A DNA stretch of 64,000 nucleotides from Actinotalea lenta. Its GTDB lineage: Bacteria > Actinomycetota > Actinomycetes > Actinomycetales > Cellulomonadaceae. The translations under genes were made by a program, and so were the position numbers. Positions 10,334 to 62,867 of the stretch are shown here, piece by piece. How positions within the stretch are numbered: position 1 is the first letter of the stretch; the number at the start of each line of letters is the position of its first letter. Under the pieces are notes generated by a model. The model saw nothing but the letters and a program-made list of their open reading frames with translations, made no database searches and had not been told where the DNA came from. The stretch lies in the NCBI RefSeq assembly GCF_030586465.1, contig NZ_JAUQYP010000001.1:1286834-1350833 (forward strand). The letters run 5' to 3'.

Positions 10334-10403
10334 GGCGGCGCGTGCGGTGCGCCGCGCGGGCCGCCGACGGAGGCGGTCCGCCCGGCCCCGGAGGGAGAGT
10401 CCG

Positions 10404-11042: not shown

Positions 11043-11081
11043 ACAGTGCGCGTCGCCTGCCCCCTGCGCGGCGCGCACTGT
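11043..11081 (+). terminator. Large hairpin after the universal stress gene
   Basis: ACAGTGCGCG pairs perfectly with CGCGCACTGT and the stem extends to about 14 pairs (one T-G wobble) around a loop at 11057-11067. There is no T-run, so termination would be atypical; the hairpin lies 100 bases past the stop. The rest of the 10944-11239 gap shows only a shorter inverted repeat (GTGGTCG...CGACCAC) and the promoter listed next. Confidence 0.45.
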
Positions 11082-11227
11082 CGTATGTCCGGGCACTGCG
11101 GCTCCGGGCACTGTCGGCCGCGGCGACCGCCGCGCCCACTCCTTCGCGCTCCGCTCCCGGACCGCCCGGCGATGGCATCCCACCGGCCCGACGGCGCGCC
11201 TCACGCCCCGTACCGAGACCGCCCCGT

Positions 11228-11233
11228 TAGCGT
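11228..11233 (+). promoter_or_regulatory. Leaderless-type -10 box before the helicase-like gene
   Basis: TAGCGT ends 6 bases before the GTG start, the spacing expected when transcription begins at the start codon itself. No ribosome-binding site is visible, which agrees. Confidence 0.6.
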
Positions 11234-11239
11234 GCTGGG

Positions 11240-14200
11240 GTGATCCCCGCCCAGCACCCCGGGACGAGCCCGGCGGACCCCGAGACCGGCAGCCGGCCGG
11301 TGGCTGCGGTGACCACGGCCGACCTGGTCGCCACCGCGGTGCGCCGATGGCGGGACGCGCTCGCGGACGCCGCCGGCGACTCGGCACTCTCGGACGTCGA
11401 GCGCCTCGGCGACGCCCAGCTCGACCTGTCCGCGGCCCACCCGTCCGGCATCGCCCAGCTCTTCGCCGGACGGCCCACCAGACTGTCCAACCTGGTACGG
11501 GAGGGTGCCGCCCTGGCGCTGGCGCGCCGCCGCGCGCGCGCCGTCGGAGCGCTCGCGGAGCAGCATGCCCTGCGGTCCGGTCTCGCGACCGCCTTCCTCG
11601 CGATCGGGGTGGCCTCCTGGAACGAGCCGGAGGATGGCTCCGAGGCCGGCTCGTCGGAGGACGGCGACACCGTGCCGCGCGCCGTCGAAGGCGACACCCC
11701 CCACGGGACCGCGAGCGAGGAGGAGCCCCGCCGGATGCGCGCGCCGGTCCTGCTACGTCCCGTCACGGTGACGCCGAGGGGGCGTGGCGAGGCCGACTAC
11801 GACCTGGTCCTGGAACCGTCCCTGGAGATCAACCCGCTGCTGGCGACGGCTCTGCGCCGCCGCGGGGCGCTGCTGGACCCGGCCTCCCTGGCGCGCGGGG
11901 CGTTCACCGCGCAGGGCTTCGACCCGCGTGCGGCGCTCGAACGGCTCGGCTCGCTCGGTGGCGCGCTGCTGGACGACTTCGAGCTCGTCGACCGCGTGGT
12001 CGTCGGGACCTTCATGCACCCCGAGCAGACGCTGCTCGACGACCTCGACCAGCTGGCGCCGACGCTGGCGGGGCACGAGGTGGTCGCCGCCGCGTGCGGG
12101 GATCAGCGGGCCGCGGCCGCTCTCGCCCACCCGTTGCCGACGCCGGTGCGCGGGGATCGAGGACTGGACCAGGAGCGCGGGGTCGGCGACCTCGATCCCG
12201 CCCAGGCGCACGTCCTGGACAGCCTCGCGGGCGGGCACCATCTCCTGGTCGACGCCCCGGCCGGCGCCGACGTGCCCGGAACCTTGGCGGCGGTGGTCGC
12301 CGACGCGGCCGCGGCGGGGCGCAGGGTGCTCTACGTGGCGGGGCATCGCCGGGCGGCGACGGCGATGACCGCGCGGCTCGGCGCGCTCGGTCTCGGGGAC
12401 CTCGTGCTGGACGTCGCACCCGACTCGGGCTGGCGTTCCGAGGTGGCGCGTCGCCTGCTGGGCGCCATGACGATCGAGCCGGTGCTGGTCGACGCGGAGA
12501 AGGTCTCGATCGTCGAGCGGGAGCTGCTCGACCGCCGCGCCCGGCTGTCCGGCTACGTCGAGGCGCTGCACACCGTGCGCGACCCGTGGGGATGCTCGGC
12601 CTACGACGCGCTGCAGGCCCTGGCACGGTTGACGGCGGACCGTCCGTGCCCGCGTACCACCGTGCGCCTGACCGCCCAGGTGGCCGAGTCGCTGACCGCC
12701 GAGCGCCGCGCCCAGGCGGCTGCCGACCTGGTCACCGTCGCGGGGCTCGGGGCCTTCACCGCGAGCACCACGACGACGGCCTGGTACGGGGCGGACCTGC
12801 CGACCGCCGATCGTGCGGCCAAGGCCCTGGAGCGGGTGGCCAGGCTCCGCGAGCGCCTGCCCGAGCTCGAGGAGCAGACGGCGGAGGTCGCGGAGGCCAC
12901 CGGGCTGGTGCAGGCCAGGACACCCGCGCAGTGGGCTGAGCAGCTGGCCATGCTCGGGGGCGTCCGCCAGGTCCTGGACGTGTTCCAGCCGATCGCCTTC
13001 GAACGGTCGGCCGCGGACCTGATCTCGGCCACAGCGAGCACGCAGTGGCGTGCCGAGCACGGCGTGGAGATGCCCGGGCGGGTGCGGCGGCGGTTGCGCC
13101 GGCAGGCCAAGGACCTGCTGCGGCCGGGTCGCCCGGTGGCGGACCTGCACGGCGCGCTCGTCGAGCTGCACGCGCAACGCGAGATCTGGCAGGCGCACTG
13201 CCCGGCCGGAGGGTGGCCCCGCCTGCCCGAGGGCCTCGCGGCGATCGAGCGCGAGCACCGCACGGTCGCGGAGGACCTCGCCGAGCTCTCCGCCGTCCTG
13301 CGGCCCACGGCCGACGGGGGCGGCCTCGCGGAGCTGACGTGGGCGGATCTGCGCGCTCGCCTGGACCGGCTGCACGCGGACGCCGCGGCGCTGGAGTCGC
13401 TGCCCGGCCGGACCGCGCTCCTGCGGGACCTGACCAAGCGCGGGCTCGGCGAGCTGCTCGAGGACCTGGCCCGCCGGCACGCCGTGGCCGGTGTGGTGGC
13501 GTCCGAGCTCGACCTCGCCTGGTGGTCCACCGCGTTCGAGGAGATCCTCCGCCAGGACCCGGCGATGGCCGCGGCCGACGGGGCCGCCCTGGCCCGGCTC
13601 GCGGCGGAGTTCCGCACGCTCGACCGCCGGCACCTCACCGACCGCGCGCTGCTGCACGTCGCAGGCTCCCGGGAGTCGCTGCGTCAGCGCCTGCACCGCT
13701 GCGACGAGCAGGCCCAGGCACTGTTCGGCGAGATCGTCGAGGACCGCTTCACGAGCCTGCGCGCCGCGGTCGAGCGGTACCCCGACGTCACCCGGCACCT
13801 GCGCCCGTGCCTGGTCGTCGGGCCGATGCTGGTGCCGCACGTGCTGCCGCCCACGAGGTCCGAGGACCTGGTGATCCTGGACGCGGCCGGCCACCTGCCG
13901 ACCGAGCTGGTCGTCGGCGCGCTGGCCCGAGGCAAGCAGGTCCTCGTGGTCGCGGACACCCGCACCGCGACCGGGTCGGCGATCCGGTCGTTGGCCGAGG
14001 TGCTGCCGCGCGTGACCCTGCACAGCGACGCCACCCCGCGTCACCCCCGCCTGACCAGGTTCCTGGCCGAGCACGGGTACGGCGACAGCGTGACCGCGAC
14101 CCCGCTGCCGAGCACCGCCGGACTGCTGCGTCTGGACGTCGTCGACGGCACGGGGATGCCCGGGCCGGACGGCGCCGTCGCGTCGACGCCCGCCGAGGTG

Positions 14201-49094: not shown

Positions 49095-51155
49095 TCAGCG
49101 CGTGATGGTGACGGGTGCGCCGTCGGTGAAGTAGTTGCCCGTCAGGGCCAGCCGGTAGCTGGTGTTGGGCATCTTGATGCCGCAGCTCGGGTAGATGGCG
49201 TGGCGGCCGAAGGTGTTGTCGGCCAGGCGCACGTTCTGCGGTGCGGTGGGCTGGTTCTTGATGTTGACCACGCAGGCGCCGTAGTCGAGGAGGTTGTTCT
49301 GGATGTCGAGGTCGGCGACCAGGCCCTGGTCCTCGGTAACCATGATCGCGGCGTTGTGGGATCCGGTGATCACGTTGTTGCGCAGGGTGATGTTGCGCCC
49401 GACCTGGATCTGCACGCCGTCGTCGTGGCTGGGCGTCCCGCCGTGGTTGGGGTCGTTGAGGAAGTGGGCGTTGTCGTGCAGCCACGAGTCAGTGATGGTG
49501 ACGTTGTCGCCGTAGATGTGCACCTGGTCGACCACGCCGTGAATGTTCAGGCGGGTGGCGGTGATGTTCATGCCGCGCAGTCCGTCCTGGTAGGGCGAAG
49601 AGATCTCAGGAACGATCTCGGTGTCCTGCACCGTGGCCGAGTAGGCCGAGGAGGGCACGGTGATCAGGCCCCGGCTGTAGGTGGTGGGGGTTCCGCCGCG
49701 CACGATCGAGTTGCGGATCACGACATTCCTGGCCTTGACCACGACGTAGCCGTGGACGTCGAGCCCGTCCAGCACGGTGCCGTCCCGGGTCACCACGATG
49801 TCCCCGTCATGCCGGGTCAATGACGTACCGGTCGGAACCCCCGTCGTGCTCGGACCTGGGGTGACGGGCGCGGGCTGCGCCGGGGCGATCTCTGGGAGCG
49901 GGGAGCCGTCGCCCACGTAGTAGCCCTGCAGATCGACGAAGAGCCGTGTTGCGCCGGCATTGTTGTAGAGCGTCACCTGATTCCCACGGGGGCCACCGAG
50001 CTTGAGGACCGCGTTGTTCGCGGTGTCGGCGAGTGGACGGGGATTCAGCGTCGAGGACTCCCGGCAGTCGGCGAGCGAGGTACCGGTCGGGCAGGCCGAG
50101 ACGTAGGAGGCTCCGGCGGCGGCCGTGGCGGTCACGTTGACGACGGCGGCGGTGGCTCCGGAAGGCACGTTCGGAAGTGTCACCGTGGTCGTCGCCCCGC
50201 TGCCCATCGCCGCGCCCGCGAGAACGCGCTGGGGCTGGACCTTCGCCAGGTTCGCGGAGCCTGCCGGCGCCTTGCTCGAGTCGACGAAGAAGCCCTCGAC
50301 GTCCGCCATCAGGAGTGCGGTCCCGGAGTTGTTGTAGAGGCGGACCTGGTTCCCTGAGCCGCTCAGCTTGACGATCGCCAGATTGGCGACGTCGATCCCC
50401 GGATGCACGTTCAGGGAGGAGGTCGACGTGCACGACGACAGCGCCTGGCTGGCGGGGCACGCGGATACGAACGACAGCGCCGACGCATGGCTGCCCGTGA
50501 GATTCAGCGCGACGGCGACGGCTCCGGCCGGTGCCTCCGGGAACGACAGGGTGTAGTTGCTGCGAGCCCCGAAGGTCCTCGGCTGCATCGCCCGGTACGG
50601 CGTCGTGGGGATGAAGTCGCTACCCCCGGTCGTTCCCGCGGGCACGTAGTACCCCGAGATGTCGGCGACGAGTTGAACCGTGCCGACGTTGTTGTACAGC
50701 ATCACCGAGTTCTTGGCGCTACCGCCCAGTGCGACCAGGGCGGCAGTCGCGGTGTCCACGCGGGGCGTTGGATTCAGCGCCGATGTCTGCCGGCAGGTCA
50801 AGACGGGTGTGCCGGCGGCGCACGCAGAGATGAAGGTGTTCGTGCTCGCCCGGCTTGCCGTGACGGTGAGCTGGACTGCGGTGGCCCCCGAGGGAAGTCC
50901 GGGGATGACCAGCGTCCTGCTGGTGCCGGCGCCGAAGGAGGTCGCAGACATCACCCTGTGCGGCGCCACTGGCACGAAGACCGCGTCGGCGGCCGTGGGC
51001 GTCGACGCCGACAGGGTCGTAGCCCGTGCCGGGGCGCCCGGCACGGCGAGCACCGACACCAGCGCGAGGCCGAGGGAGAAGACCGGGACAGCGACACGCC
51101 GCGCCGCCGCGAGGAGTGCGGATACGGCGGTGCGCCGCTGGGAGGGGTGGTTCAC
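49095..51155 (-). CDS. Secreted beta-helix protein 1: three ~115-residue repeats plus shared beta-helix domain
   Basis: A 686-residue exported protein. A signal peptide (about 1-45, ending APARA) is followed by three similar repeats (about 58-171, 178-291, 301-413), each with a conserved Cys pair, LYNN and an end like DISGYYV; such repeats occur in surface proteins of actinobacteria. A Pro/Thr linker leads to a right-handed parallel beta-helix domain (about 439-686) with SWLHDNAHF, PSHDDGVQIQ (575-584) and two Cys (628, 658). The domain is shared with the genes at 51642 and 54551. Pectate-lyase-like folds of this kind are found in glycan lyases and epimerases and in adhesins; the activity here is unknown. 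GTG at 51155, with GGAG directly behind a c-di-GMP aptamer. Confidence 0.85.
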   Translation of the reverse strand: MNHPSQRRTAVSALLAAARRVAVPVFSLGLALVSVLAVPGAPARATTLSASTPTAADAVFVPVAPHRVMSATSFGAGTSRTLVIPGLPSGATAVQLTVTASRASTNTFISACAAGTPVLTCRQTSALNPTPRVDTATAALVALGGSAKNSVMLYNNVGTVQLVADISGYYVPAGTTGGSDFIPTTPYRAMQPRTFGARSNYTLSFPEAPAGAVAVALNLTGSHASALSFVSACPASQALSSCTSTSSLNVHPGIDVANLAIVKLSGSGNQVRLYNNSGTALLMADVEGFFVDSSKAPAGSANLAKVQPQRVLAGAAMGSGATTTVTLPNVPSGATAAVVNVTATAAAGASYVSACPTGTSLADCRESSTLNPRPLADTANNAVLKLGGPRGNQVTLYNNAGATRLFVDLQGYYVGDGSPLPEIAPAQPAPVTPGPSTTGVPTGTSLTRHDGDIVVTRDGTVLDGLDVHGYVVVKARNVVIRNSIVRGGTPTTYSRGLITVPSSAYSATVQDTEIVPEISSPYQDGLRGMNITATRLNIHGVVDQVHIYGDNVTITDSWLHDNAHFLNDPNHGGTPSHDDGVQIQVGRNITLRNNVITGSHNAAIMVTEDQGLVADLDIQNNLLDYGACVVNIKNQPTAPQNVRLADNTFGRHAIYPSCGIKMPNTSYRLALTGNYFTDGAPVTITR

Positions 51156-51167
51156 GCTTTCGCTCCG

Positions 51168-51248
51168 TCGGGTTCGGTAGCCTGGCGAGCCCAAGTGGGC
51201 CCCATGGCTTTGCGTCTCCGCCTCTCGGCGGGTTTGCCTTTTCGTCCA
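51168..51248 (-). ncRNA. Cyclic-di-GMP-I (GEMM) riboswitch
   Basis: On the minus strand the leader reads AAAAGGCAAACC (GGCAAACC at 51238-51231), a short stem capped by the GNRA loop GAGA, GACGCAAAGCC (51216-51206), a second variable stem (GGCCCACTTGGGC) and CTACCGAA (TACCGA at 51179-51174). These are the conserved blocks, in order, of the GEMM-I c-di-GMP aptamer, including the tetraloop and the GACGCAAAGC strand. The aptamer ends only a few bases before the GGAG ribosome-binding site and GTG of beta-helix gene 1, so translational control is likely. On or off cannot be told from sequence. Confidence 0.85.
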
Positions 51249-51304
51249 CGGCAGCAGTTGCGCTCCTCGCGGAGTGCGCTGCCGCGAAGAGCAAATCAAC
51301 ATGC

Positions 51305-51332
51305 TCAGTACTGCTCGTGACATACGTTACAA
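51305..51332 (-). promoter_or_regulatory. Candidate promoter of beta-helix gene 1
   Basis: On the minus strand TTGTAA (51332-51327) and TACTGA (51310-51305) are 16 bases apart; the start would be near 51298, just ahead of the riboswitch. Confidence 0.45.
51316..51331. promoter_or_regulatory. Imperfect CRP-type site
   Basis: CGTGA-CATACG-TTACA matches the CRP palindrome TGTGA-N6-TCACA at 8 of 10 positions and overlaps the candidate -35. It is 43 bp from the perfect site, about four helical turns. Confidence 0.4.
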
Positions 51333-51358
51333 GCGACACGCGGGTGATTTCATGCGCC

Positions 51359-51374
51359 TGTGAGGAAGATCACA
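51359..51374. promoter_or_regulatory. Perfect CRP-type palindrome (TGTGA-N6-TCACA)
   Basis: TGTGAGGAAGATCACA is an exact match to the CRP/GlxR consensus. It is centred about 68 bases upstream of the candidate start of beta-helix gene 1, close to positions used by class I CRP sites. A cAMP-responsive regulator of the Crp/Fnr family is the expected ligand-bound partner. Confidence 0.7.
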
Positions 51375-51393
51375 GACGCATAAAGATCACCGC

Positions 51394-51408
51394 GGGGCAA
51401 TTCGGACA
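51394..51408 (+). promoter_or_regulatory. Partial copy of the shared glycan-locus motif
   Basis: GGGGC-AATTC-GGACA matches the second half (CGGGC-N5-GGACA) of the motifs at 47420 and 60596. The first half is absent. The remaining gap (51409-51641) is less GC-rich than its surroundings, contains a GCCGCGC-CAG-GCGCGGC hairpin (51485-51501) that may end beta-helix gene 2, and a repeated GAGTATTCG; no gene is seen in it. Confidence 0.35.
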
Positions 51409-51641
51409 TATCCTTTCGAATCTGGCTCTTGCCTCGCCGGGTCCGGTGAGGTGTGCCGGGGTGCTCGAAGGGCGGGGGCGGCTCGCCGCGCCAGGCGCGG
51501 CCCAGCAGGTGAGTTGCTCGCGGTGCGCAGCTCGCTCCATTCTCGGGTCTTGATCGGACTGAGTTTCGCGGTCGGCCGCACCCGAATTCTGCAGCGTCGA
51601 GTATTCGCCGATTGTCTTCTTGAGTATTCGTGCGCAGATTC

Positions 51642-53174
51642 TCAGGGTGTGCGCCCAACCGGCGCCCCATCGGTGAATGCGTTGTTCGCCAGGTCGAGCT
51701 GGTAGGCGGCATTGGGCACCTTGATCCCGCAGCTCGGCCATCGGGCGTGCCTGCCGAAGGTGTTGCCCCGGATGCTGACGGCTGTAGGGGACGGCCCCTG
51801 GTCCTTGATGTTGACCACGCACGCGCCATCGTCGAGGAAGTTTCCCTTGACGACGAGGTTGCTGACGGGGCCCCCGTCCTGGGTGACCATCAGGGCGGCG
51901 TTGGTGGCACCTTCGAGGCGGTTGCCAGCGATCGTGATGTCGGTGCCGGTCTGGATCTGGATCGAGTCGTCGTGGCTGGGGCCGCCCCCGTGGTTGGGAT
52001 CGTGCGCGAAGTGCGTGTTCCCGTGCAGCCAGGAGTTGGCGATCGTGACGTGGTCCCCGTAGAGGTGGGCGCCATCAACGACGCCGCGGATCTCTACCCG
52101 GCGCGCGGTGAAGCTCATCCCACGGATGCCGTCTTGCAGGGGCGACGAGATAGTCGGGGCCAGGGTGCTGTCCTCGATGGTGAGGCTGTACTGCGCCGAG
52201 GGCACGGTGACGAGCCCCCTGCTGCTCGTTCCCGGGGTGCCGCCGCGGATCACGGAGTTGCGGATCACCACGTCGCGCGCACGGATCGTCACATAGCCGC
52301 GGATGTCGAGGCCGTCGAGGAGGGTGCCGTCCTTGGTGATGACCATGTCGCCCTGGTGCACGGTGAGGTGTGTGCCTGCCGGGACGCCAACCGACCCGGC
52401 CTGCGGCGTCGGGGCCGGCGCGGGTGTCGCGGTCGGGCTGGGGGCGCTGGCGGTCGAGCCGCTCACGGGTGTACATCCGATGGTCCCGGTCGCCCCTCCG
52501 CTGGCGGCGACGACGCAGAGCTCGTGGCGCCCGGCGGGGACCTTCACGGCCCCGCGGAAGCCGGCCCGCGAGGACATCCCGGGGTACACCCGCGGGACGT
52601 CCGGGCGAGCGAGTCCTGTCGACGTGGTTCCGGCGGTCGCGCCGTCCAGGGTCAGGTGAACGTCGGCGTGCGCGTTGGCCATGAGCCTGTCGGCCCAGCC
52701 GCGCACGGCCACCGCACCGTCCCGGTCCACCGTGCTGTCGAGGTGCCCGACGACGCCGCTGCCCGGGTGCACCAGGGTCCGGCACCCCAGCCATCGGTCC
52801 GAGCCGGGGCCGACGTTCACGACCGTGGCGCAGACCGTGTGCCGCCCGGGCGAGGCGGGTACGACGACGTCGAATCCCTGGTGGCCACCGATCTGCGGGT
52901 AGACACGTGAGACGTCGGGCCGGGCGGCGCCCGTGCGGACAGCGGTCGTGGCGCCGTCCACAGTGACGTCGACCGTGACCGGGCCTGTGCTGTCGGCGTC
53001 GGCAGCCCAGCCCTGGAGTGCGATCCCCGTCCGGGTGAGGCCGACCTGGTCGACGTTGCCGATCGGGGAGGTGCCGACGGCTGCTGCCGCGGGGGCGAGG
53101 CCGACGAGCGCCAACCCGAGCGAGGCGGCTCCGGCCGTCAACGTGCGCCGGGGGGCTCGCCAGGTTCGCGGCAT
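51642..53174 (-). CDS. Secreted beta-helix protein 2: two ~95-residue Ig-like repeats plus shared beta-helix domain
   Basis: A 510-residue exported protein with signal peptide (about 1-33). Two repeats follow (about 38-131 and 141-232) of the type GNVDQV...GWAADADS...VTVDVTVDG...RPDVSRVYP...GF...G-H-VC...LGC, a domain often attached to actinobacterial lysozymes and other secreted enzymes. After a Pro/Ala/Thr linker comes the shared beta-helix domain (about 263-510) with SWLHGNTHF, PSHDDSIQIQ, GACVVNIKDQ and PSCGIK. ATG at 53174, AAGG about 10 bases upstream; own promoter at 53254-53282. Activity unknown. Confidence 0.85.
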   Translation of the reverse strand: MPRTWRAPRRTLTAGAASLGLALVGLAPAAAAVGTSPIGNVDQVGLTRTGIALQGWAADADSTGPVTVDVTVDGATTAVRTGAARPDVSRVYPQIGGHQGFDVVVPASPGRHTVCATVVNVGPGSDRWLGCRTLVHPGSGVVGHLDSTVDRDGAVAVRGWADRLMANAHADVHLTLDGATAGTTSTGLARPDVPRVYPGMSSRAGFRGAVKVPAGRHELCVVAASGGATGTIGCTPVSGSTASAPSPTATPAPAPTPQAGSVGVPAGTHLTVHQGDMVITKDGTLLDGLDIRGYVTIRARDVVIRNSVIRGGTPGTSSRGLVTVPSAQYSLTIEDSTLAPTISSPLQDGIRGMSFTARRVEIRGVVDGAHLYGDHVTIANSWLHGNTHFAHDPNHGGGPSHDDSIQIQTGTDITIAGNRLEGATNAALMVTQDGGPVSNLVVKGNFLDDGACVVNIKDQGPSPTAVSIRGNTFGRHARWPSCGIKVPNAAYQLDLANNAFTDGAPVGRTP

Positions 53175-53253
53175 GCTCGGTCAACCTTCGTCTCGTGGGT
53201 GGATGATGCGTCCGGATGACCATGCATAACGGTTTGGTCACGAACAGGGGTTG

Positions 53254-53282
53254 ACCGTAGGCGACGCCGAACGGCTTGCCAA
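53254..53282 (-). promoter_or_regulatory. Sigma-70-type promoter of beta-helix gene 2
   Basis: On the minus strand TTGGCA (53282-53277) and TACGGT (53259-53254) are separated by exactly 17 bases. The start near 53247 gives a leader of about 70 bases with no c-di-GMP aptamer. The rest of 53283-53473 shows no gene. Confidence 0.65.
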
Positions 53283-53473
53283 CTTCCGCTGACCCGTCCT
53301 GACCTGCGCGGCTGCCCAGGCCGAGCGGTCGCGACATCGCCAACCCGCAGGTCACGGCGCGGTCTCGGTTCACGCTCCCGATTCGTCCGATCGGGTGAAT
53401 GTGACCATTCTCACTGGCGGGCCGCGGCGGCCCGCATCTCTAGGTTGGCATCGCGAGCGGACCTCGCTGCCCC

Positions 53474-53479
53474 TAGCCT
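53474..53479 (+). promoter_or_regulatory. Leaderless-type -10 box before the GT4 gene
   Basis: TAGCCT ends 7 bases before the GTG at 53487; no ribosome-binding site is present. A CGGGTGAA sequence at 53393-53400 recalls the start of the motif at 47420 but lies too far upstream to be judged. Confidence 0.55.
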
Positions 53480-53486
53480 TCGGGGC

Positions 53487-54548
53487 GTGCAGGTGACCTT
53501 CGACGGGTTCTGGTGGGCCGATGGACCGCTCGCGAACCGCACCGTCCAGCGAGAGCTGGTGCTGGCGTGGGCGGACGCGTTCCCCCAGGACGACCTCACC
53601 GTCGCGCTGCGGCATGGCGCCCCGGCCGACGATCTCCCCGCCCATGCGAGCATCGTCCGTACCCGGCTCTGGCCGCACGGGCTGTCGAACGGCGCGGAGC
53701 TCGGCGTCCTGGCGCGTCGGCAAGGGGCCGACCTCGTCATCGCGCACAACTACACGGCGCGTCACCCCCGCGCCGTGACCTTCGTGCACGACGCGATGTT
53801 CGGGGATCACCCGGAATGGTTCTCCCGACCCGAGCGCGTCTACTTCGCGCGGATGCTTCCGGGACTGCGGCGGGCTCGACTGACGGTCACATCGACGGCC
53901 ACCGAGGCGAGGCGCATCGAGCGGCTCGCCCCGCACAGCGCCCCGGTTGCGGACATCGGGCTCGCGGTCTCGACCGCGCTTGTGGGCGCTGACGCGGTCC
54001 GTCCCCCGGATGTGCCGGACGACTTCGCCCTGACGGTCGGTCGCTTGAACGTCCGCAAGAACCTCGAGGCCGTCATCCGGGCTGCCGTGGCGAGCACGTC
54101 GGTGACGCCCTCCTCACCGCTGCTGGTGGTCGGTAGCGGTGAGCACTCGGGGGTGGGCGCGAACCTGCCGGACCAGGTGAGGCAGCACGTGGCGGAGGGC
54201 AGCGTACGGTTCCTCGGTCGGATTGCCGACGCGGAACTCGCGTGGCTCTACACCCACGCCGCCGTCACGCTGTGCCTCTCGCTGGACGAGGGTTTCGGCC
54301 TCCCGGCACTCGAGGCGGTGCAGTTCGGGTCACCGGCGGTCGTCAGCGACATCCCGGTGTTCGCGGAGACTGTGGGTCGCTACGCGCGTCTGGTCGACCC
54401 GCGGGCGGACGCGGCGGTGCTCGCAACGACCCTGGACAGCGCCTGGGGACACCACCCCGATCCGGCAGTCCGTGACCGCATACTCGCGCGGTACTCCTGG
54501 CGCCGGTCCGTCGAACGGCTGCGCGAGGCCGTGGCGCCGCTCGTGTGA
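53487..54548 (+). CDS. Glycosyltransferase family 4 (GT-B fold)
   Basis: A 353-residue cytoplasmic glycosyltransferase. The N-terminal half has an acceptor-side Rossmann fold (TFDGFWWADGPLANRTVQREL; HDAMFGDHPEWFSRPERVYFARM); the C-terminal half has the donor domain with LTVGRLNVRKNLEAVIRA (about 180-200), VRFLGRIADAELAWLYTHA and the nucleotide-sugar motif LSLDEGFGLPALEAVQFGSPAVVSD (about 270-294). It adds a sugar to the lipid-linked repeat unit; donor unknown. It stands alone on the plus strand between two beta-helix genes. Confidence 0.9.
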   Translation: MQVTFDGFWWADGPLANRTVQRELVLAWADAFPQDDLTVALRHGAPADDLPAHASIVRTRLWPHGLSNGAELGVLARRQGADLVIAHNYTARHPRAVTFVHDAMFGDHPEWFSRPERVYFARMLPGLRRARLTVTSTATEARRIERLAPHSAPVADIGLAVSTALVGADAVRPPDVPDDFALTVGRLNVRKNLEAVIRAAVASTSVTPSSPLLVVGSGEHSGVGANLPDQVRQHVAEGSVRFLGRIADAELAWLYTHAAVTLCLSLDEGFGLPALEAVQFGSPAVVSDIPVFAETVGRYARLVDPRADAAVLATTLDSAWGHHPDPAVRDRILARYSWRRSVERLREAVAPLV

Positions 54549-54550
54549 TC

Positions 54551-55813
54551 TCAGGCAGTACGGCCCACCGGCACCCCGTCGATGAAGAAGTTGCGCTGCA
54601 GCTCGAGCGGGTAGGTCGTGTTGGGTACCTTGATGCCGCAGTTGGGATAGACCGCTCCTCGACCAAAGGTGTTGTCGGTCAGGGCGACGCCCTGCGGGGC
54701 CGGACCCTGGTCCTTGATGTTCACGACGCATGTGCCGTCGTCCAGCCAGTTGTCACTGATGCTCAGCGAACTGACTCGTCCGGCGTCCTGGGTGAGCATG
54801 ATCGCTGCGTTGTGCGAGCCGGAGAGGTCGTTGTGCGTGATCGTGATGCGCGCGCCGACCTGGATCTGGACGTTGTCGTCGTGGCTGGGCGCGCCGTTGC
54901 GCGTCGGGTCCTGGGCGAAGTGTGCATTGCCGTGCAGCCAGGAGTCCACCACGCGGACATCGGAACCTGTGATGTGGACCTGGTCGATGACGTTGGCGAC
55001 CTCCACCCGCCGGAGCGTGAAGCCCGCGCCCTGGACCCCGTTGAGGTATGGGGACGCGGTCGACGCCACGATCGTTGAGTCGACGATCGTGGCCCCGGAT
55101 CCCGCCTGGACGGTCACCAGCGCCGTCGGGCTGTTCACCGGCCTGCCGCGGATCACGCTGTCGCGGACCGTGACCCCGGTGGTCTCGATCCGCACCAGGC
55201 CGTGCACGTCGAGCGAGTCGATCACCGTCCCCGGTTGCGTGATCGTCAGGTCGCCCTGGTGCACGGTCAGCGAGGTGCCAGCAGGCACGCCGGTGTTCGT
55301 GGCCGACGGGCGGGAGCTGCTCCCGCTGCTGGGTGGTGGGCTGCTGGCCGATGGGCGCGGGGAGGGCGAGACCGCGGGGGCGGACGGTGGCGCGGACGCG
55401 GTCGAAGGGTGGCTCGCCGCGGGAGCTACCGTGCCCGGCCGCGAAGGTGCCCCCGCTGGCGTCTCCGCGGGGCGTGGGCTCACGGACGGCGCATCAGACG
55501 GAGTCGGACCGGACGCGGGGTCACTCGTCGGGCTTGCGTGCGAGGGCGTCGTGGTCGCATCGCCCGGGGAGGGGTCGGGCCGGTCTGGAGCGACTCGGAC
55601 CGAGCTCCGGGAGGCGCTTTGCGCATCCCGCTGTGCCAACAGGGCGCCGACGGTCGGCTGCGGGGCACCGGCCAGGGACGTCGCGGCCGGAGCGGCCGGA
55701 GTGCCGAGCAGCACCAGCGCCGTGAGGGCCACGAGCCGGGTCCCCGCTCGAACCCGGTGGTCAACCGGACTCGGGCCGGCATGCTTGCCCCGTTGCGCAG
55801 CCCGTCCTCGCAT
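54551..55813 (-). CDS. Secreted beta-helix protein 3: low-complexity stalk plus shared beta-helix domain
   Basis: A 420-residue exported protein. A basic N-terminus and hydrophobic segment (about 25-45) form the signal; a Pro/Ser/Thr/Ala-rich region (about 70-172) looks like an extended, possibly O-mannosylated stalk; the shared beta-helix domain (about 175-420) has SWLHGNAHF, PSHDDNVQIQ, GTCVVNIKDQ and PNCGIK. Protein mannosyltransferase is encoded at 25801. ATG at 55813 is chosen for GGAG five bases upstream; GTG codons at 55843 and 55855 are in frame. It lies 93 bases after the GT2 gene on the same strand. Confidence 0.82.
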   Translation of the reverse strand: MRGRAAQRGKHAGPSPVDHRVRAGTRLVALTALVLLGTPAAPAATSLAGAPQPTVGALLAQRDAQSASRSSVRVAPDRPDPSPGDATTTPSHASPTSDPASGPTPSDAPSVSPRPAETPAGAPSRPGTVAPAASHPSTASAPPSAPAVSPSPRPSASSPPPSSGSSSRPSATNTGVPAGTSLTVHQGDLTITQPGTVIDSLDVHGLVRIETTGVTVRDSVIRGRPVNSPTALVTVQAGSGATIVDSTIVASTASPYLNGVQGAGFTLRRVEVANVIDQVHITGSDVRVVDSWLHGNAHFAQDPTRNGAPSHDDNVQIQVGARITITHNDLSGSHNAAIMLTQDAGRVSSLSISDNWLDDGTCVVNIKDQGPAPQGVALTDNTFGRGAVYPNCGIKVPNTTYPLELQRNFFIDGVPVGRTA

Positions 55814-55857
55814 CCGGTCTCCGATCCTTGGCGCTCGCTCCACCCGCGAGGGCACCC

Positions 55858-55906: not shown

Positions 55907-56791
55907 TCAGCGGCGGAGCATCGACGCCAGGACCGCCCCGATCCCCTGTGTCGTACCCGCGGCCAGCGCGCCCAGCGCCGGGGTGAGACGTCGCGCCTGG
56001 GTGCGCGTGATGCCAGCGCGCCTCAGCAGCGTTGCCGCGTATCGCACGGAGCCCAGCACCCATCGCCACCGGTCGGCCCGGGTCAGGTGCTTGCTGGCGA
56101 ACACCAGTCGGTTCCGCGCATTGTGCCGCAGGTAGCCCAGCGACTTGCCGCCCTGGGTCCCGCCGACGTCGTGCTCGACCGCGAGGTCTGGACGCACCTC
56201 CAGCCGCCCCCCGACGGCGCGGACCCGCCAGGCGAGGTCGACGTCCTCCCAGTAGAGGAAGTAGTCGTCGTCGAAGCCGCCGCACGCCCGCCACAACTGG
56301 GCACTGACCGCGAGGCAGGCCCCGCTCAGCCATCCCGTGTGCGCGGTGGAGTCGGCGCCCGCAGTGCGGGTGGTTCCCTCACGGACCGCGACCTCGCCGC
56401 CGGAGAACCACACGCTCCCGTCCGGCCGGAGCACGCGTGGTGAGCGCATGGTCCACGGGTCCGCACGGCACGCGGCGGCGAGCTCACCCAGCACAGCTGC
56501 CGTCGCGCGCAGGTCGGGGTTGACCAGCAGGAGCTCGGTACGGCCGAGCTCGAGCGCCCGCGCCGTGCCCAGGCCGACGCCGGCGCCGAAGCCCAGGTTG
56601 ACCGCCGGCGTCAGCAGCTCCCATCCGCGGCGACGCGCTACGTCACGTGCCTCGTCGCGGTCGCGTGCCGACCGGTAGTTGTCCACCAGGACGACGAGGG
56701 CGTCCAATCCGTCGAGTGCCGCTGGCGGCAGGTTCCGGTCGACCAGTGCCGCGCTGCCGTAGCTGACGACCACGATCGCAGTTCCGCTCAT
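55907..56791 (-). CDS. Glycosyltransferase family 2, WbbL/rhamnosyltransferase-like
   Basis: A 294-residue GT-A enzyme: AIVVVSYGSAALVDRNL at the start, LNLGFGAGVGLG-type block (NLGFGAGVGLGTARA, about 84-98), LLLVNPDLRA (the DxD-equivalent region), TGWLSGACLAVSAQLWRACGGFDDDYFLYWEDVDLAWRVRAVGG (about 158-200), then a C-terminal amphipathic region. The EDVDLxxR motif and overall layout match actinobacterial rhamnosyltransferases such as WbbL, but the sugar is not certain. Coupled to the flippase gene by ATGA overlap. Confidence 0.88.
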   Translation of the reverse strand: MSGTAIVVVSYGSAALVDRNLPPAALDGLDALVVLVDNYRSARDRDEARDVARRRGWELLTPAVNLGFGAGVGLGTARALELGRTELLLVNPDLRATAAVLGELAAACRADPWTMRSPRVLRPDGSVWFSGGEVAVREGTTRTAGADSTAHTGWLSGACLAVSAQLWRACGGFDDDYFLYWEDVDLAWRVRAVGGRLEVRPDLAVEHDVGGTQGGKSLGYLRHNARNRLVFASKHLTRADRWRWVLGSVRYAATLLRRAGITRTQARRLTPALGALAAGTTQGIGAVLASMLRR

Positions 56792-58251
56792 CGGCCGCGG
56801 CTCCGGGCCATCCTGATGGCCTCCGCGACTCCGGCGAGGTCTCGGCGCACCGCGGGCACCGCCAGCGCCGCGAGGCCGTAGACGGCCATTCCAACCGCGC
56901 CGGCTGCGGCGATCCGCGCCAGGGCGGGGGAGCTCACCAGCTCGGCGCTGACCGCGGCGGCGCTCAGCGCCGCGGCTCCGGCGACGGCCAGGATGCGCAG
57001 CGCCCCGGTGGCGAGGTCGCGCGCGGGGATGGAGGTTCGCCGGTTGAGCCACCACAGGGAGAGCGGCCAGGCAAGCGCGGGTGCCACCGCGTAGCCAGCG
57101 GCGACCCCGACGATCCCGCCGAGGCTGCCCACCAGCACGCACGTGATCTTGATCGCGGCGCTGACCAGCGTGTATCGGAACAGGTCGGTGGTCAGGTCGC
57201 GCGAGAGGTAGACCCAGTAGCCCACGTACGACAGGGTCTGGAAGATCCCGGCTATCGCGAGCAGCCTCAGCACGGGTGCGACCGCGGACCACGTCCCCCC
57301 CAGGAACACGGCGGTCACGGGGTCGGCGGTCGCAGCCACCAGCGCGAGTGCCGCCACCAGTGTGTAGCCCAACGCGAGCTGCCCGCGACGCACGAAGTCG
57401 GCGTAGCGCTCCGGCTCGGCGTGCAGCCGGGACAGCACGGGTAGGGCGACCGTTGTGGTCGGGGCTCGCAGCTGGCTCAGTGGGCGCATCAGTAACTGGA
57501 ACCCGCGGTTGTACAGGCCGAGCGGCCCGGCCCCGAATCGCAGACCGATAACCAGTGTGTCGGTGTTGTTGCTCGCGTAGCCCACCAGCTGCGTGCCGAC
57601 CAGGCGCCAGCCGAAGCTCAGCAGAGCGCGCATGGGGACTCCACGGCGCGGCCGACCCGGCAACCAGCGGCCGCCGATCACCATCCCGACGAGCAGCACC
57701 GTGGACTGGGTGAGGTTCTGTGCCACTAGGGCCCAGTAGCTCCCGGTCGTGAGCGCCCAGGCCGTGGCCACTGCCAGGGCAACGGTGGGTGCGGCCACCT
57801 CGGCCACCGCAACGCGGGCGAACTTCATGCCCCGGAGCAGGCTCGCCCGGTACTGCGTCGCCATCCCGTTGAGGAGGAATGTGACGGCGAGGGCTCGGGC
57901 GATTCCCACGAGCTCGGACCGGGAGTACACGGCCGCTATCAGGCCGGCTCCGCCCGCGACGAGGGTCGCCAGCACAAGCCCGATACCGGTGTTGATCCAG
58001 AACAGGTTGTTCCGCTGTGCGGTGGACAGCTCCTTGGCCTGCACTGCGGCCGACGAGAGTCCGAAGTCGCGGAAGATCTCCCCGACGCCGACGATCACTG
58101 CCACCATGGCCAGGAGGCCGTAGTCCTGCGGGCTGAGCAGTCGTGCGAGCACAGTGACGGACAGCACCTGCACCGCGATCCGGATCGCCTGGCCCGTCAG
58201 GGTCACGGCCGCACCACGGGCGGCACGCCTACCCAGACCCGCGGTGCTCAT
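56788..58251 (-). CDS. Polysaccharide flippase (Wzx-like, MOP superfamily)
   Basis: A 487-residue membrane protein with about twelve to fourteen helices in the pattern of lipid-linked oligosaccharide flippases: RGAAVTLTGQAIRIAVQVLSVTVLARLLSPQDYGLLAMV (about 10-48), YASNNTDTLVIGLRFGAGPLGLYNRGFQLLMRPLSQL (about 222-258) and VYLSRDLTTDLFRY. It carries the lipid-linked repeat unit across the membrane for polymerisation outside. ATGA overlaps at both ends tie it to the F420-hydrogenase-beta-like gene and the GT2 gene. Confidence 0.92.
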   Translation of the reverse strand: MSTAGLGRRAARGAAVTLTGQAIRIAVQVLSVTVLARLLSPQDYGLLAMVAVIVGVGEIFRDFGLSSAAVQAKELSTAQRNNLFWINTGIGLVLATLVAGGAGLIAAVYSRSELVGIARALAVTFLLNGMATQYRASLLRGMKFARVAVAEVAAPTVALAVATAWALTTGSYWALVAQNLTQSTVLLVGMVIGGRWLPGRPRRGVPMRALLSFGWRLVGTQLVGYASNNTDTLVIGLRFGAGPLGLYNRGFQLLMRPLSQLRAPTTTVALPVLSRLHAEPERYADFVRRGQLALGYTLVAALALVAATADPVTAVFLGGTWSAVAPVLRLLAIAGIFQTLSYVGYWVYLSRDLTTDLFRYTLVSAAIKITCVLVGSLGGIVGVAAGYAVAPALAWPLSLWWLNRRTSIPARDLATGALRILAVAGAAALSAAAVSAELVSSPALARIAAAGAVGMAVYGLAALAVPAVRRDLAGVAEAIRMARSRGR

Positions 58252-59444
58252 CCCGTGCTCCGTCGGACTGCGCGCACCCGGCTGAACGAGCCACGTGCAG
58301 TGCGCACCGTGTCCCGCCACTCGGCGAGTGCCAACCGGGTCAACCCGAAGCCGCGGTAGCGCGGGGTGCGGCGCCCAGCGAGGCGCGCACCTGCCAGGCG
58401 CCCGAGCAACGTCGCACGGCGGCGGCGGTGCAGCGGCTGGACGGCGGCGACGGTCTCCGGGTCGACGGGCTCAGCCACCAGGACGCCGGCCGCAACGGCG
58501 CGGCGGATGACATCGGCACCGCGCTCGGTGCGTGCCACCAGTGCACTGACGCCGGGAGACTCGGAGAAGACCGGGTAGCCGCGCTCGTCGCTCGTCCACA
58601 GGTCTCCTGCGGTGATGTCGCTGGCCTCGCCCACGCCGTCCGGGCAGATCTTGCAGCGCCACTGGACCGTGGGCCCCAGGGCCTTGCCCCACGAGTCGTG
58701 GTAGCTGGCGTCGACCTCGGTACCGTCCTGCGCAGTGGCCACGAACCGCCCGGGCCAACCGTGGCCGCGGTAGCGCAGGCGGGCGAGTGGTGCGGTCGCG
58801 GGCAGGCCGAGGTCGGTGACCAGGCCGTCCGTCGCGGCCTGGTTGGGGGTGCCGGCGCAGAAGAACGACATCAGCAGGGGACCTTGGGATCCGCTCAGGG
58901 CGCGGAGCGCCGAGGCCTCGCAGGGCTTGGCTACCACGGCGGAGCCCTGGGCGAGCACCGCGGGCGCAGCGGCGGTGGCGACAGGGGCGTACCGCGAGCC
59001 GGCGGCGCGCAGGGCGCTCGTCCGGTCGGTGATCGTCACGCTCATGGTCCGGCGTGGGTCGGGCGCCGCGGCAGCGCCGACTACCCGGACCGCCTCACCG
59101 CTCTCAGTGAGCCAGGAGGCGAGTGCGGTGAGGACCCCGCCACTGCTCCCGCTGCGGCGGATCTCCGGGTCGGTCGCCCAGGCGCGCCATGACCCGACTA
59201 CCGGGCCGAGGGTCGCGTGCCTGCGGGACCCCACGGGGCGTGCGGCGTCGACGTGGACACCTGGGCAGACGGCGCGGAAGCGACGAGCGTCGACCCGGGC
59301 GGGGGGCGGCCCGGTTCGACGCGGCCGCAGCTGCCCCTGGTCGAGCTCCATCGACAGGCCGGCGTCAAGGAGCGTGCATGCCCCGCACCCCGAGCAGGCA
59401 TCGGCCGCCAGGACTCGGGCGACCTCGCGATCCAGCCCGGTCAT
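58248..59444 (-). CDS. Coenzyme F420 hydrogenase/dehydrogenase beta-subunit-like iron-sulfur protein
   Basis: A 398-residue protein. The N-terminal ACSGCGACTLLDAGL with CPG further on (about 16-62) is a cysteine cluster of the ferredoxin type; the middle has SGGVLTALASWLTESG and SRYAPVATA, and the C-terminal FrhB domain has WRCKICPDGVGEASDITAGDLW (about 260-280). Such proteins often lie beside polysaccharide pyruvyltransferases in glycan loci, as here, where their reaction is not established. ATGA overlaps with both neighbours. Confidence 0.87.
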   Translation of the reverse strand: MTGLDREVARVLAADACSGCGACTLLDAGLSMELDQGQLRPRRTGPPPARVDARRFRAVCPGVHVDAARPVGSRRHATLGPVVGSWRAWATDPEIRRSGSSGGVLTALASWLTESGEAVRVVGAAAAPDPRRTMSVTITDRTSALRAAGSRYAPVATAAAPAVLAQGSAVVAKPCEASALRALSGSQGPLLMSFFCAGTPNQAATDGLVTDLGLPATAPLARLRYRGHGWPGRFVATAQDGTEVDASYHDSWGKALGPTVQWRCKICPDGVGEASDITAGDLWTSDERGYPVFSESPGVSALVARTERGADVIRRAVAAGVLVAEPVDPETVAAVQPLHRRRRATLLGRLAGARLAGRRTPRYRGFGLTRLALAEWRDTVRTARGSFSRVRAVRRSTG

Positions 59445-60508
59445 GATGCCGACCGTAACGCGTCCAGCGCGGGCCGGAGCAGGTCGCCCGCCGTCGTGCG
59501 GACCTTCGCCACATGCCGGTCGAGGTCGGTCCGGGCCAGCGCAACGACCGCTTCCGCTGGATCCGCGGAGGACCGCAGGTCAATGGTGTGGGGCCAGCCG
59601 AGCTCGTCCAGCAGCGGGGCGAACTTGCGGGAGTACGCCAAGGGGATGGCGGCAGTTCCCATCGACAGCGCGTTCAAGCAGGCGTGCATCCGTGAGCCGA
59701 CCACGAGAGCGGCGCCACCCACCATGAGTCGCACCTCGTCCAGGTTCGTGGGCAGGAGGACCTCCAGGCCGAGTTCGCGGCCGAGCTCGGTCGCTGCTGG
59801 AACGTCGTTGTCCGCTGACGGGGACTCGAGCACGTGGGCGAGCAGGGCAACCTCCCGGCCCTCAGCCACGAGTCCGTCGGCCACGGCGCGGACCGTTGCG
59901 CGATAGCGCTCGGCGTCGATGTGTGGCCCCGGGTTCCACAGCAGGCCGGACACGTTCAGCAGCACGTCGTGCGAGCGGGCGACCGGGGGGGCCGGTAGCG
60001 CGAACACCACGTCGGTCGTGTGCACGTCCACCGGGCGGCCGGCCCGGGCGGCTGCCTCGGCGCTCTCCGCGTCGCGGGCCATGACGACTGACGCGGTGCG
60101 CAGGGAACGGCGGCCGAGGAGCTGACCACGCTTAGTCCCGAACGGGCCGATCGTCTGGGGGGCCAGCACCAGCGGGGTTCCGGCGCGCGCTGCCAACTCA
60201 GCCACCGTCGACATCGTGAGAAGCCGCTTGATGCCGTAGATGTCGGCGAACGAGTCCCCGGACCGTGTGTCGAGGATCAGGTCGAAGCCTCCCAGCCAGC
60301 GCACGAGGCCGTACCGGTGGGTCACCGCCTCGCGCACCAGCGTGCGCGGCTCTCGAAACGGCAACGGGCTGGGCCCGCGACCGAAGTTCTGGAAACTGAC
60401 CTCCGCCTCCGGCCAGACCTGCCGCACCAGGGCAGCGGTGCCCTGTCCGAGGGCACGGACCCCGAGGTTGGGTGAGACGTCGTCCGCCCACAGGACGAGG
60501 ATGCGCAT
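59441..60508 (-). CDS. Polysaccharide pyruvyltransferase family protein (WcaK/CsaB-like)
   Basis: Adds a ketal-linked pyruvate from PEP to a sugar of the polymer, giving it negative charge. The 355-residue protein has ILVLWADDVSPNLGVRALGQGTAALVRQ at the start, LILDTRSGDSFADIYGIKRLL (about 75-95), LVLAPQTIGPFGTKRGQLLGRRSL (about 112-135), RDAESAEAA, and the C-terminal VGSRMHACLNALSMGTAAIPLAYSRKF (about 280-306) with the conserved Arg and His. First gene of a four-gene coupled minus-strand operon. ATG at 60508 with AGGAAGG upstream. Confidence 0.9.
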   Translation of the reverse strand: MRILVLWADDVSPNLGVRALGQGTAALVRQVWPEAEVSFQNFGRGPSPLPFREPRTLVREAVTHRYGLVRWLGGFDLILDTRSGDSFADIYGIKRLLTMSTVAELAARAGTPLVLAPQTIGPFGTKRGQLLGRRSLRTASVVMARDAESAEAAARAGRPVDVHTTDVVFALPAPPVARSHDVLLNVSGLLWNPGPHIDAERYRATVRAVADGLVAEGREVALLAHVLESPSADNDVPAATELGRELGLEVLLPTNLDEVRLMVGGAALVVGSRMHACLNALSMGTAAIPLAYSRKFAPLLDELGWPHTIDLRSSADPAEAVVALARTDLDRHVAKVRTTAGDLLRPALDALRSAS

Positions 60509-60556
60509 CCGGCCCTTCCTGTCGCATCGGCTCGATCCGGGAGCCCGGAGGCTAGG

Positions 60557-60719: not shown

Positions 60720-62867
60720 ATGGCTGATCGAGGTGGCGACGTGCTGGACGACGAGCCTGCGCCGCCGCTGGTGCTGCAGTCGATCAGCGCCCTTCGCTCG
60801 ACCACGAATCCATACATCACGCAGCTCGTGCGCGGCCTTCCCGGCGCGGCGCTGTTCTCCTGGCGCACGGCGCTGCTGGGTCGGTGGGACGTGCTGCACC
60901 TGCACTGGCCCGAGCTGGTCTTCCGACGCGCCGCACGGTGGCGTACCGCAGTGGGCCTCGTCCTGTTCGCGTTGCTGATGCTGCGTGCCCGGGTCACGCG
61001 ACGGGCGGTGGTGCGCACTGTGCACAACACTGCCCCGCATGAGCCGGGGGGCCGCGTCGAGCGCGCGGTCCTGGCGCTCGCGGACCGCTGGACGACGATC
61101 CAGATCCTGCTGAGTCCGCAGGTTCGCCTACCCGGCCCCACGCCGAGCGTTCTCATCCCGCACGGGGACTACCGGGACTGGTATGCGGGGCACGAGGTCC
61201 CGCCCGTGGTCCGCGGGCGCGTGCTTGTCTTCGGCCTGATCCGTCGGTACAAGGGGGTCGAAGATCTCATAGCTGCCGTGCGGCGGTCCACCGACGTCGC
61301 CCTCGAGCTGCATGTGGTGGGCCGCCCGGCAGATGCGGAGGTGGCGCAGGGCATCCGGGCCGCCGCAGGTGAGGATCCACGCATCAACCTGCGCCTCGAG
61401 CATGTCGACGACGCGGCCCTGGCCCGGGAGATCGGCGAGGCCGAGCTCGTCGTGCTCCCTTACCGCACGGCGCAGAACTCCGGTGCCGCCCTGCTGGCCC
61501 TCTCGCTCGGCCGCCCGGTACTGATGTCGGACAGCCCGGTGAGCCGCGCGCTGTCCGCCGAGGTGGGACCGGGCTGGGTCCAGACGTTCTGCGGCGAGCT
61601 CACCGCCGACGTCCTGGAGGGGGCAGTGCGCACGCCCGGGCGTCGCGGGGCCGCGCCGGACCTGTCCGCGCGGGGCTGGCCCACCGTCCTGGCGCACCAT
61701 GAGGACGTCTACCGACAGGCTCTGGACCTGGTCCGCCGTCGCCGGCAGCCTAGCGTCGCCCTGGTCGGGACCCGCGGTGTGCCCGCGCGGTACGGCGGCT
61801 TCGAGACGTGTGTCGAGGAGGTAGGCAGGCGCCTGGTCGACCTCGGCCACGAGGTCGTCGTGTACTCGCGCGGCGACGGGCCCCGCGAGCACCTGGGAAT
61901 GCGGTGCGTGCGGCTGCCGGCGCTGCGGCACCGGGTGCTGGAGACCCTGAGCCACACCGCCCTGTCCGTCGCGCACCTCCTCGTACACCGGGCCGACGCG
62001 GTGATCGTCTTCAACGCGGCCAACGCCCCGCTGCTGCCTCTGCTGCGGCTTGCTCGGCTCCCTGTGGCGACGCATGTAGACGGCCTGGAGTGGCAGCGCG
62101 CCAAGTGGGGTCGCGCCGGCCGGTCCTACTACCGCAGGGCCGAGCGCTGGGCGGTGCGGTGGTCGGACGCGCTGATCGCCGACGCACGCGGTATCCAGGA
62201 CTACTACCTCACGCGGTTCGGTGCGCAGACCGTGCTGCTGGCCTACGGCGCACCAGTGGTGGCGCGCCGCACCGATCGGCTGGGCGAGTTGGGCCTGGAG
62301 GCAGATGGCTACCACCTGGTCGTGGCGCGGTTCGAGCCCGAGAACCACGTCGACGTGATCGTGCGAGGGTATGTTCGGTCCGACGCGCGGCTACCGTTGG
62401 TCGTTGTCGGCAGCGCACCGTACGCCGACCAGTACATCCGTCAGGTGCACGACCTGGCCGACGAACGGGTGCGCTTCCTCGGTTCGCTCTGGGATCAGGA
62501 ACTGCTGGACCAGCTGTACGCCGGCGCGCGCACGTACCTGGACGGCCACAGCGTGGGGGGTACCAACCCCTCCCTCCTCCGTGCGATGGGAGCGGGTGCG
62601 CCGACCGTCGCATGGGACGTCGTGTTCAATCGGGAGGTCCTTGGGGCCGCAGGGTTGTGGTTCGCGTCTCCGGGTGACGTGGCGGCGCGAGTGCACGAGG
62701 CGGAGCAGGATGCGCGGGCCTGGCATGAGCGCGGCACGGCGGCGCGTGTCCGCGCGGGGGACTACGACTGGGACGACGTGGCGAGGGGCTACAGTGCCCT
62801 CGCCCGGCGGCTGGCGGCGCGTTCACGCGGGGTGGCGGCGCGCGATCGGACAGGAGGCCGGCGATGA
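60720..62867 (+). CDS. Fusion of two glycosyltransferases (GumH-like GT4 + DUF1972/rhamnosyltransferase-like GT4)
   Basis: A 715-residue protein with two complete GT-B enzymes. Half 1 (about 15-340): LHLHWPELVFRR, VRTVHNTAPHEPGG, LIPHGDYRDWY, VLVFGLIRRYKGVEDLIAAVR and LPYRTAQNSGAALLALSLGRPVLM, as in beta-mannosyl/glucuronosyl-type transferases. Half 2 (from about 344): VALVGTRGVPARYGGFETCVEEVGRRLVDLGHEVVVYSR, the DUF1972 start, then HVDGLEWQRAKWGR, VARFEPENHVDVIVRGY and GHSVGGTNPSLLRAMGAGAPTVAWD, as in WchF-like rhamnosyltransferases. The frame is unbroken. It probably adds two successive sugars. ATG 60720 is used; the nearby ATG at 60704 is out of frame. Confidence 0.88.
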   Translation: MADRGGDVLDDEPAPPLVLQSISALRSTTNPYITQLVRGLPGAALFSWRTALLGRWDVLHLHWPELVFRRAARWRTAVGLVLFALLMLRARVTRRAVVRTVHNTAPHEPGGRVERAVLALADRWTTIQILLSPQVRLPGPTPSVLIPHGDYRDWYAGHEVPPVVRGRVLVFGLIRRYKGVEDLIAAVRRSTDVALELHVVGRPADAEVAQGIRAAAGEDPRINLRLEHVDDAALAREIGEAELVVLPYRTAQNSGAALLALSLGRPVLMSDSPVSRALSAEVGPGWVQTFCGELTADVLEGAVRTPGRRGAAPDLSARGWPTVLAHHEDVYRQALDLVRRRRQPSVALVGTRGVPARYGGFETCVEEVGRRLVDLGHEVVVYSRGDGPREHLGMRCVRLPALRHRVLETLSHTALSVAHLLVHRADAVIVFNAANAPLLPLLRLARLPVATHVDGLEWQRAKWGRAGRSYYRRAERWAVRWSDALIADARGIQDYYLTRFGAQTVLLAYGAPVVARRTDRLGELGLEADGYHLVVARFEPENHVDVIVRGYVRSDARLPLVVVGSAPYADQYIRQVHDLADERVRFLGSLWDQELLDQLYAGARTYLDGHSVGGTNPSLLRAMGAGAPTVAWDVVFNREVLGAAGLWFASPGDVAARVHEAEQDARAWHERGTAARVRAGDYDWDDVARGYSALARRLAARSRGVAARDRTGGRR

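Follow-up and report, generated by a model that had tools for sequence, protein, structure and literature searches.

This report concerns three neighbouring genes within a 64,000-nucleotide stretch of the Actinotalea lenta genome (‘the window’: assembly GCF_030586465.1, contig NZ_JAUQYP010000001.1, positions 1,286,834 to 1,350,833 of the forward strand; coordinates below count from its first letter), each encoding a protein that joins one constant C-terminal domain (the ‘C-domain’) to an N-terminal region of its own. All three lie on the minus strand as open frames—P0001 (49095..51323), P0002 (51642..53174) and P0003 (54551..55855)—and their last ~250 residues can be aligned at 54–60% identity, with the motifs picked out in a first-pass annotation of this DNA present in each. 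The C-domains occupy 49098..49841 in P0001, 51645..52388 in P0002 and 54554..55291 in P0003, the histidine of the SHDD motif being residue 633 in P0001 and residue 325 in P0003. Ahead of the domain, P0001 carries three ‘u1’ repeats of 118–124 residues (50637..50993, 50265..50636 and 49911..50264) and P0002 two ‘u2’ repeats of 98–104 residues (52758..53069 and 52464..52757), while P0003 has a Pro/Ser/Thr-rich stalk (55292..55579), these three amino acids making up 62% of its residues 93–182; the arrangement of one C-domain behind unrelated N-termini, as the annotation had described it, is thus borne out.

P0001 probably begins at a GTG codon at 51155, 56 codons within its longest frame, rather than at the ATG at 51323, as a signal-peptide-like stretch comes directly after the former. 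Signal-like N-termini can be recognised by eye on all three proteins, which on this basis are apparently secreted. At an E-value threshold of 0.001 the source genome (3.3 Mb in three contigs, estimated to be 100% complete) holds three copies of the C-domain, all inside the window, with no fourth copy found beyond it. A match between residues 46–109 of P0002 and a tyrosine kinase in the PDB (E 0.0034) was set aside as likely due to chance.

The AlphaFold2 (AF2) model for the C-domain of P0002 (51645-52412) is a right-handed beta-helix with a predicted local distance difference test score (pLDDT) of 96.8, in keeping with the beta-helix proposed for it in the first-pass annotation. Its closest folds are polysaccharide lyases, epimerases and tailspikes, with pectate and alginate lyases and polygalacturonases among them; searches of a viral structure library return general beta-helix matches (best E 1.2e-4). 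Against the Pfam Beta_helix family (PF13229; curated cut-off 25.9 bits), a protein search passes P0002 (28.4 bits) and leaves P0001 (24.8) and P0003 (22.0) below, whereas a six-frame search passes both P0001 (28.9) and P0002 (28.6), with P0003 (23.3) again below. P0001 also lies barely above the Pfam cut-off for NosD (24.1 against 23.6 bits; the NCBIfam cut-off is 300 bits), a family for which P0002 and P0003 are not listed; matched against C-domains alone, NosD scores 10.5 bits for P0002 and gives weak matches in 24 of 52 family members, at best with E 3.1e-5. Within PHROGs, the P0002 C-domain finds phrog_2234 (E 3.7e-4) and phrog_7458 (E 0.01), for which beta-helix repeats held in common may be the explanation. 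PDB sequence-profile searches give no match to lyases of the PL31, PL6 or RbmB type, with which the predicted model has its right-handed beta-helix in common.

The only PDB sequence-profile match below E 0.001 is 1k5c, a GH28 polygalacturonase (6.6e-5 and 2.1e-4). GH28 enzymes bear the signatures NTD, (Q)DD, GHG and RIK; in the alignment, D367 and D403 (P0002 numbering, used throughout) pair with the aspartates of NTD and DD. Membership of GH28 is nonetheless rejected: the NTD, GHG and RIK signatures are absent from the C-domain, and Glyco_hydro_28 (PF00295) matches a single one of the 52 C-domains, its best E being 0.073. In the close set, 44% of copies have His at position 424.

What the family does conserve is centred on a core motif, H401-D402-D403-x-x-Q406 (51957..51974 in P0002, minus strand), together with H384 (52023-52025) and D367 (52074-52076). 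Among 130 copies, drawn from the window and loci L082–L156, H401, D403, D367 and C452 are present without exception, N455 and Q406 in 98% and H384 in 94%; the motif is intact in 119. A set of 70 copies retains H401 throughout and D403, D367, H384 and Q406 in 84–96%. From the alternation of residues along the strands, the side chains of H384 and Q406 should face outwards. The invariance first ascribed to the motifs therefore holds for these positions and fails at others: K457 of CVVNIK is Lys in only 5% of the 130 copies, and at position 402, where HDD has its first Asp, only 9% of 33 copies sampled across the class carry that residue. On the latter ground HDD as such is rejected as a metal triplet, leaving of the putative catalytic or metal site the His and second Asp, which are kept class-wide.

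Using the P0002 C-domain as query and counting the source genome, we find matches in 17 of the 59 closest genomes (E 0.001) and in 33 of 296 genomes of a class-wide draw (E 1e-10). A scan of genome contigs with the single protein matched no relative; made from the alignment, a pattern scan of GTDB genomes gave 103 candidates, the best 80 of which, dominated by close relatives, make up 75 named loci, largely from Cellulomonas, Actinotalea and Cryobacterium, with other actinobacteria besides. Paralogue sets are common, with two or more full-length copies in 45 of 76 loci (the 75 plus the window) and in 10 of 20 class-wide stretches. One frame of 741 residues (L220:8841-11063) contains both a full beta-helix domain (498–740) and a partial one (273–388). 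The source genome encodes a further beta-helix protein outside the window (contig C1, 1736338-1736937; a 571-residue frame with two PF13229 stretches), unmatched by the P0002 C-domain query; a UDP-glucose/GDP-mannose dehydrogenase-type gene lies some 2.5 kb away, at 1739418.

In the window, the three genes sit inside a glycan locus, as first annotated. Its first gene, located downstream of rplY (L25) and pth, is that of a sugar transferase (Bac_transf, PF02397; 47499..49034, plus strand); a group 1/GT4-type glycosyltransferase (53445..54548, plus) separates P0002 from P0003; and beyond P0003 come a GT2-like glycosyltransferase (55907..56791, minus; 25.3 bits, below the 27-bit cut-off), a Wzx-type polysaccharide flippase (Polysacc_synt_3; 56788..58251, minus), an FrhB_FdhB family protein (58248..59444, minus) adjoining a polysaccharide pyruvyltransferase (59441..60520, minus), and a glycosyltransferase with two group-1 stretches (60720..62867, plus). 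To see how far this setting recurs, stretches of up to ~20 kb around C-domain copies were searched with phmmer (E 1e-6) for relatives of six of the window's glycan genes. At least one is found in 47 of the 75 named loci, in 17 of 20 stretches from relatives (15 genomes, a G013 match on a 3.4-kb contig having been dropped) and in 15 of 20 class-wide stretches picked from the 33 matching genomes; as some genomes (several of Actinotalea, at least one of Cryobacterium) occur in more than one of these sets, the counts are not summed. None of 40 random 20-kb control stretches contains such a relative. The controls come from seven contigs of the source genome and its relatives, each centred 40 kb or more away from any known copy, and so match the set of relatives rather than the named genomes; for the source genome the zero is credible, its 15 Glyco_trans_1_4 matches all falling outside the eight control stretches taken from it. 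The positive counts are lower bounds, as the search covered relatives of those six genes only. Twelve of the 47 named loci qualify by GT2 alone, and 31 have a relative of Bac_transf, Wzx or the pyruvyltransferase; Cryobacterium loci score 14 of 28 (12 by GT2 alone) and all others 33 of 47. By these counts the association with glycan loci is genuine and repeated, which goes against the refuting condition named in the first-pass annotation, a shared domain just as common away from such loci.

These observations bear on two further accounts. The proteins might be scavenging enzymes for external plant or algal polysaccharides, placed beside a glycan locus by chance: pectate lyases, alginate lyases and polygalacturonases are among their closest folds, and Cellulomonas relatives live on plant polymers. 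Against this, the eight neighbours scanned in the window are genes of assembly and export type, the association with glycan genes is class-wide, and a scavenger would hardly be expected in tandem copies with unrelated tethers; we judge it very improbable. Alternatively, they might be passengers of a hypervariable surface-gene island, for example surface or decoy proteins that evolve fast because of phage pressure and are not directly tied to polymer chemistry. Copies outside recognised glycan loci (L087 and L149, for instance), and the presence of the domain on viral contigs, speak for such passengers; the intact motif in 119 of 130 copies would be unexpected of decoys, and 19 named loci combine glycan genes with the pth/rplY flank, so that we hold this account, too, to be unlikely. 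As to L087 itself (Cryobacterium glaciale, 2518-12400), a copy pair there stands beside genes resembling, as read by eye from the gene starts, the housekeeping genes scpAB, tyrA, cmk and der and not a glycan locus; this may be another chromosomal site that the family occupies.

Turning to the N-terminal modules, the AF2 model of a u1 unit (50268-50639; pLDDT 93.9) consists mostly of beta strands, forming a predicted beta-sandwich that resembles a fibre-tip domain and carbohydrate-binding modules. The same repeat occurs on wall-enzyme-like proteins of the source genome, and other members of the C-domain family carry PKD or CW_binding_2 modules at the N-terminal position. This fits the earlier suggestion that the N-termini set location, which remains an inference. 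On contig C2 of the source genome, outside the window, u1-repeat proteins of Amidase_2, SpoIID and Peptidase_S8 types lie among Glyco_trans_1_4 genes (291304-318646), one u1 frame (291304-291972) being interrupted by an internal stop; with a second Bac_transf gene at 255660 on the same contig, the group is perhaps a second surface-glycan island.

Constant C-domains with variable N-termini recur beyond the window. N-terminal similarity (E 1e-3 over at least 50 residues, in either direction) is absent from 53 of the 64 same-locus pairs and present in 11, while the C-domains of the pairs are 42–87% identical. N-terminal lengths were taken from stop-to-stop frames, and one frame in each of L099 and L137 overruns the preceding gene; where both N-termini reach at least 150 residues, 28 of 39 pairs lack similarity, or 25 of 36 once three inflated pairs are removed. 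Actinotalea subterranea (L090) mirrors the window, with copies bearing three u1 repeats, five u2 repeats, or neither.

In a tree of C-domains (75 rows, covering 34 of the 75 named loci and the window; bootstrap incompletely settled), the window's three copies group together (98/81). Read by eye, the tree shows 31 multi-copy loci, 10 of which have all their copies in a group of their own (8 with starred support), and the Cellulomonas fimi/terrae group has kept older paralogues as separate orthologue lines. The u1 and u2 repeats are spread over several separate clades; taken with the locus-exclusive groups of some lineages, it therefore appears that N-terminal modules and C-domains have been brought into new combinations many times, and that copies in certain lineages were duplicated locally or homogenised.

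Two loci hint at a means of homogenisation. Paralogue pairs in Actinotalea sp. K2 (L082) and Cellulomonas sp. HZM (L124) share identical tracts of 345 and 436 nt, respectively, inside C-domains that are 88–89% identical overall, where codon shuffling gives maxima of 115 and 93, and no identical run exceeds 56 in 35 between-locus control pairs of 75–90% protein identity. This suggests gene conversion; an assembly artefact is possible, both assemblies being drafts. In the remaining 62 pairs the longest run measures 12–70 nt, a few at nominal p < 0.05, and with longest runs of 17–18 nt conversion is rejected for the window itself.

The C-domain is also found on viral contigs, a scan of IMG/VR giving 41 loci; searching the named phages of INPHARED by tblastn with the P0002 C-domain gave no match at E 0.001. 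Neighbourhoods were scanned for seven of the viral loci. A 256-residue protein of L232 is taken up by the domain and has no signal-like start; its neighbours match tail, neck and, weakly, endolysin families of PHROGs. L233 has terminase and portal genes and L259 a terminase gene, and the stretch fetched for L235 includes a minor tail protein. In L240 the domain forms residues 590–840 of an 845-residue protein whose N-terminus is that of a baseplate wedge (phrog_203, E 5.5e-53, residues 7–144). The scanned neighbours in L242 and L254 match replication-type families or nothing. Five of the 41 loci lack a usable domain, and the 40 viral copies that were aligned include two seemingly identical pairs (L242/L243 and L251/L253); H401 is retained in 38, H384 in 28, D403 in 27 (with Glu in a further 5), Q406 in 22 and D367 in 13. 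Of these five, H401 alone survives in the L240 copies, which have Glu in place of D403. Counting against a general role in the virion, 25 of the 40 have Sec-like starts according to a crude script, and these may be host genes or prophage cargo.

The first-pass annotation knew of no described system with this layout, a statement that needs qualifying: bacteria are already known to have beta-helix enzymes that belong to the exopolysaccharide system they serve, by gene position or by other ties, and these offer functional precedents. WceF of Pantoea stewartii is a right-handed beta-helix protein from that organism's exopolysaccharide cluster and acts on the polymer made there (PMC7949094). It is like the window proteins in being a bacterial beta-helix so encoded, and resembles phage tailspikes; it differs in its Gram-negative host and native trimer, and the accessible part of that paper makes no mention of swapped N-terminal modules or tandem paralogues (PMC7949094). 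RbmB of Vibrio cholerae, a Vibrio polysaccharide (VPS) lyase, is likewise presented in the accessible text with no mention of modular tethers or a paralogue array (PMC11637428). In sequence, RbmB (PDB 9ozd) is 12% identical to the C-domain, with 12–20% for the alginate lyase 6kfn (PL31), AlgE/AlgG epimerases and PL6 lyases. Phage tailspikes and depolymerases (6f7d, 5w6p, 6tku) have the fold in common but possess virion attachment domains where the window proteins have signal-like starts and surface-type modules, even as the same C-domain family lies near tail genes (L232, L235, L240) or terminase and portal genes (L233, L259) on viral contigs. Literature searches, on which this statement rests, found no publication on the C-domain family; a Streptomyces beta-helix protein group that may or may not be kin to our family adjoins cysK (PMC13118837).

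Taking these data together, the function best supported for the C-domain is action on the surface polymer of the cell itself, or binding to it, a reading whose chances we put at about even, with cleavage the likelier form yet unproved. The constant beta-helix would cleave or trim (most likely), or at least grip, the surface or exopolysaccharide of its encoding locus, each paralogue placing it at a different site; u1, u2, PKD or CW_binding_2 modules, or a flexible Pro-rich stalk, would set its retention and reach, and the copies would have arisen by local duplication and exchange of N-terminal modules, with C-domains homogenised in some lineages. Several observations qualify this. No glycan gene is detected by the phmmer test in 28 of the 75 named loci; the dissimilarity of N-termini is partly trivial where one of them is little more than a signal peptide; and several of the invariant residues either occupy ladder-like positions (N445, N471 and N498) or are probable disulfide cysteines. 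A rival account envisages non-catalytic glycan-binding or matrix proteins, in which a lectin-like or structural beta-helix tethers secreted polymer and the N-terminal modules serve as wall anchors. Those modules do resemble surface or binding modules, beta-helix adhesins exist (PfbA), WceF aggregates with its own polymer (PMC7949094), and no textbook catalytic set is conserved, whether the GH28 motifs or, from our reading of the 70-copy alignment, the Lys/Tyr of lyases. Conservation of H401 and its four companions across those 70 copies is, on the other side, more than a scaffold seems to require, and viral copies often retain the same residues; we hold a purely non-catalytic role to be possible, if less likely than the first reading.

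The three-protein set may, then, be a toolkit with which the cell trims or grips its own sugar coat. A bolder scheme, to which we attach low credence, is that one catalytic beta-helix is kept uniform per genome (by conversion in some lineages) while its address modules are swapped, so that the same reaction proceeds at several places in the envelope; phage tails bearing the domain would attack or hold the same polymers, with an exchange of specificity between host and phage being possible. If the preferred reading of a domain acting on the cell's own polymer is correct, actinobacteria would possess a class-wide family of surface-glycan-active proteins, hitherto named merely ‘beta-helix’ in general libraries, with a clear motif for mutation and natural paralogue sets that separate the action of the domain from its placement. 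Its phage counterparts could hint at polymer specificity, and its members are possible tools for trimming actinobacterial exopolysaccharides.

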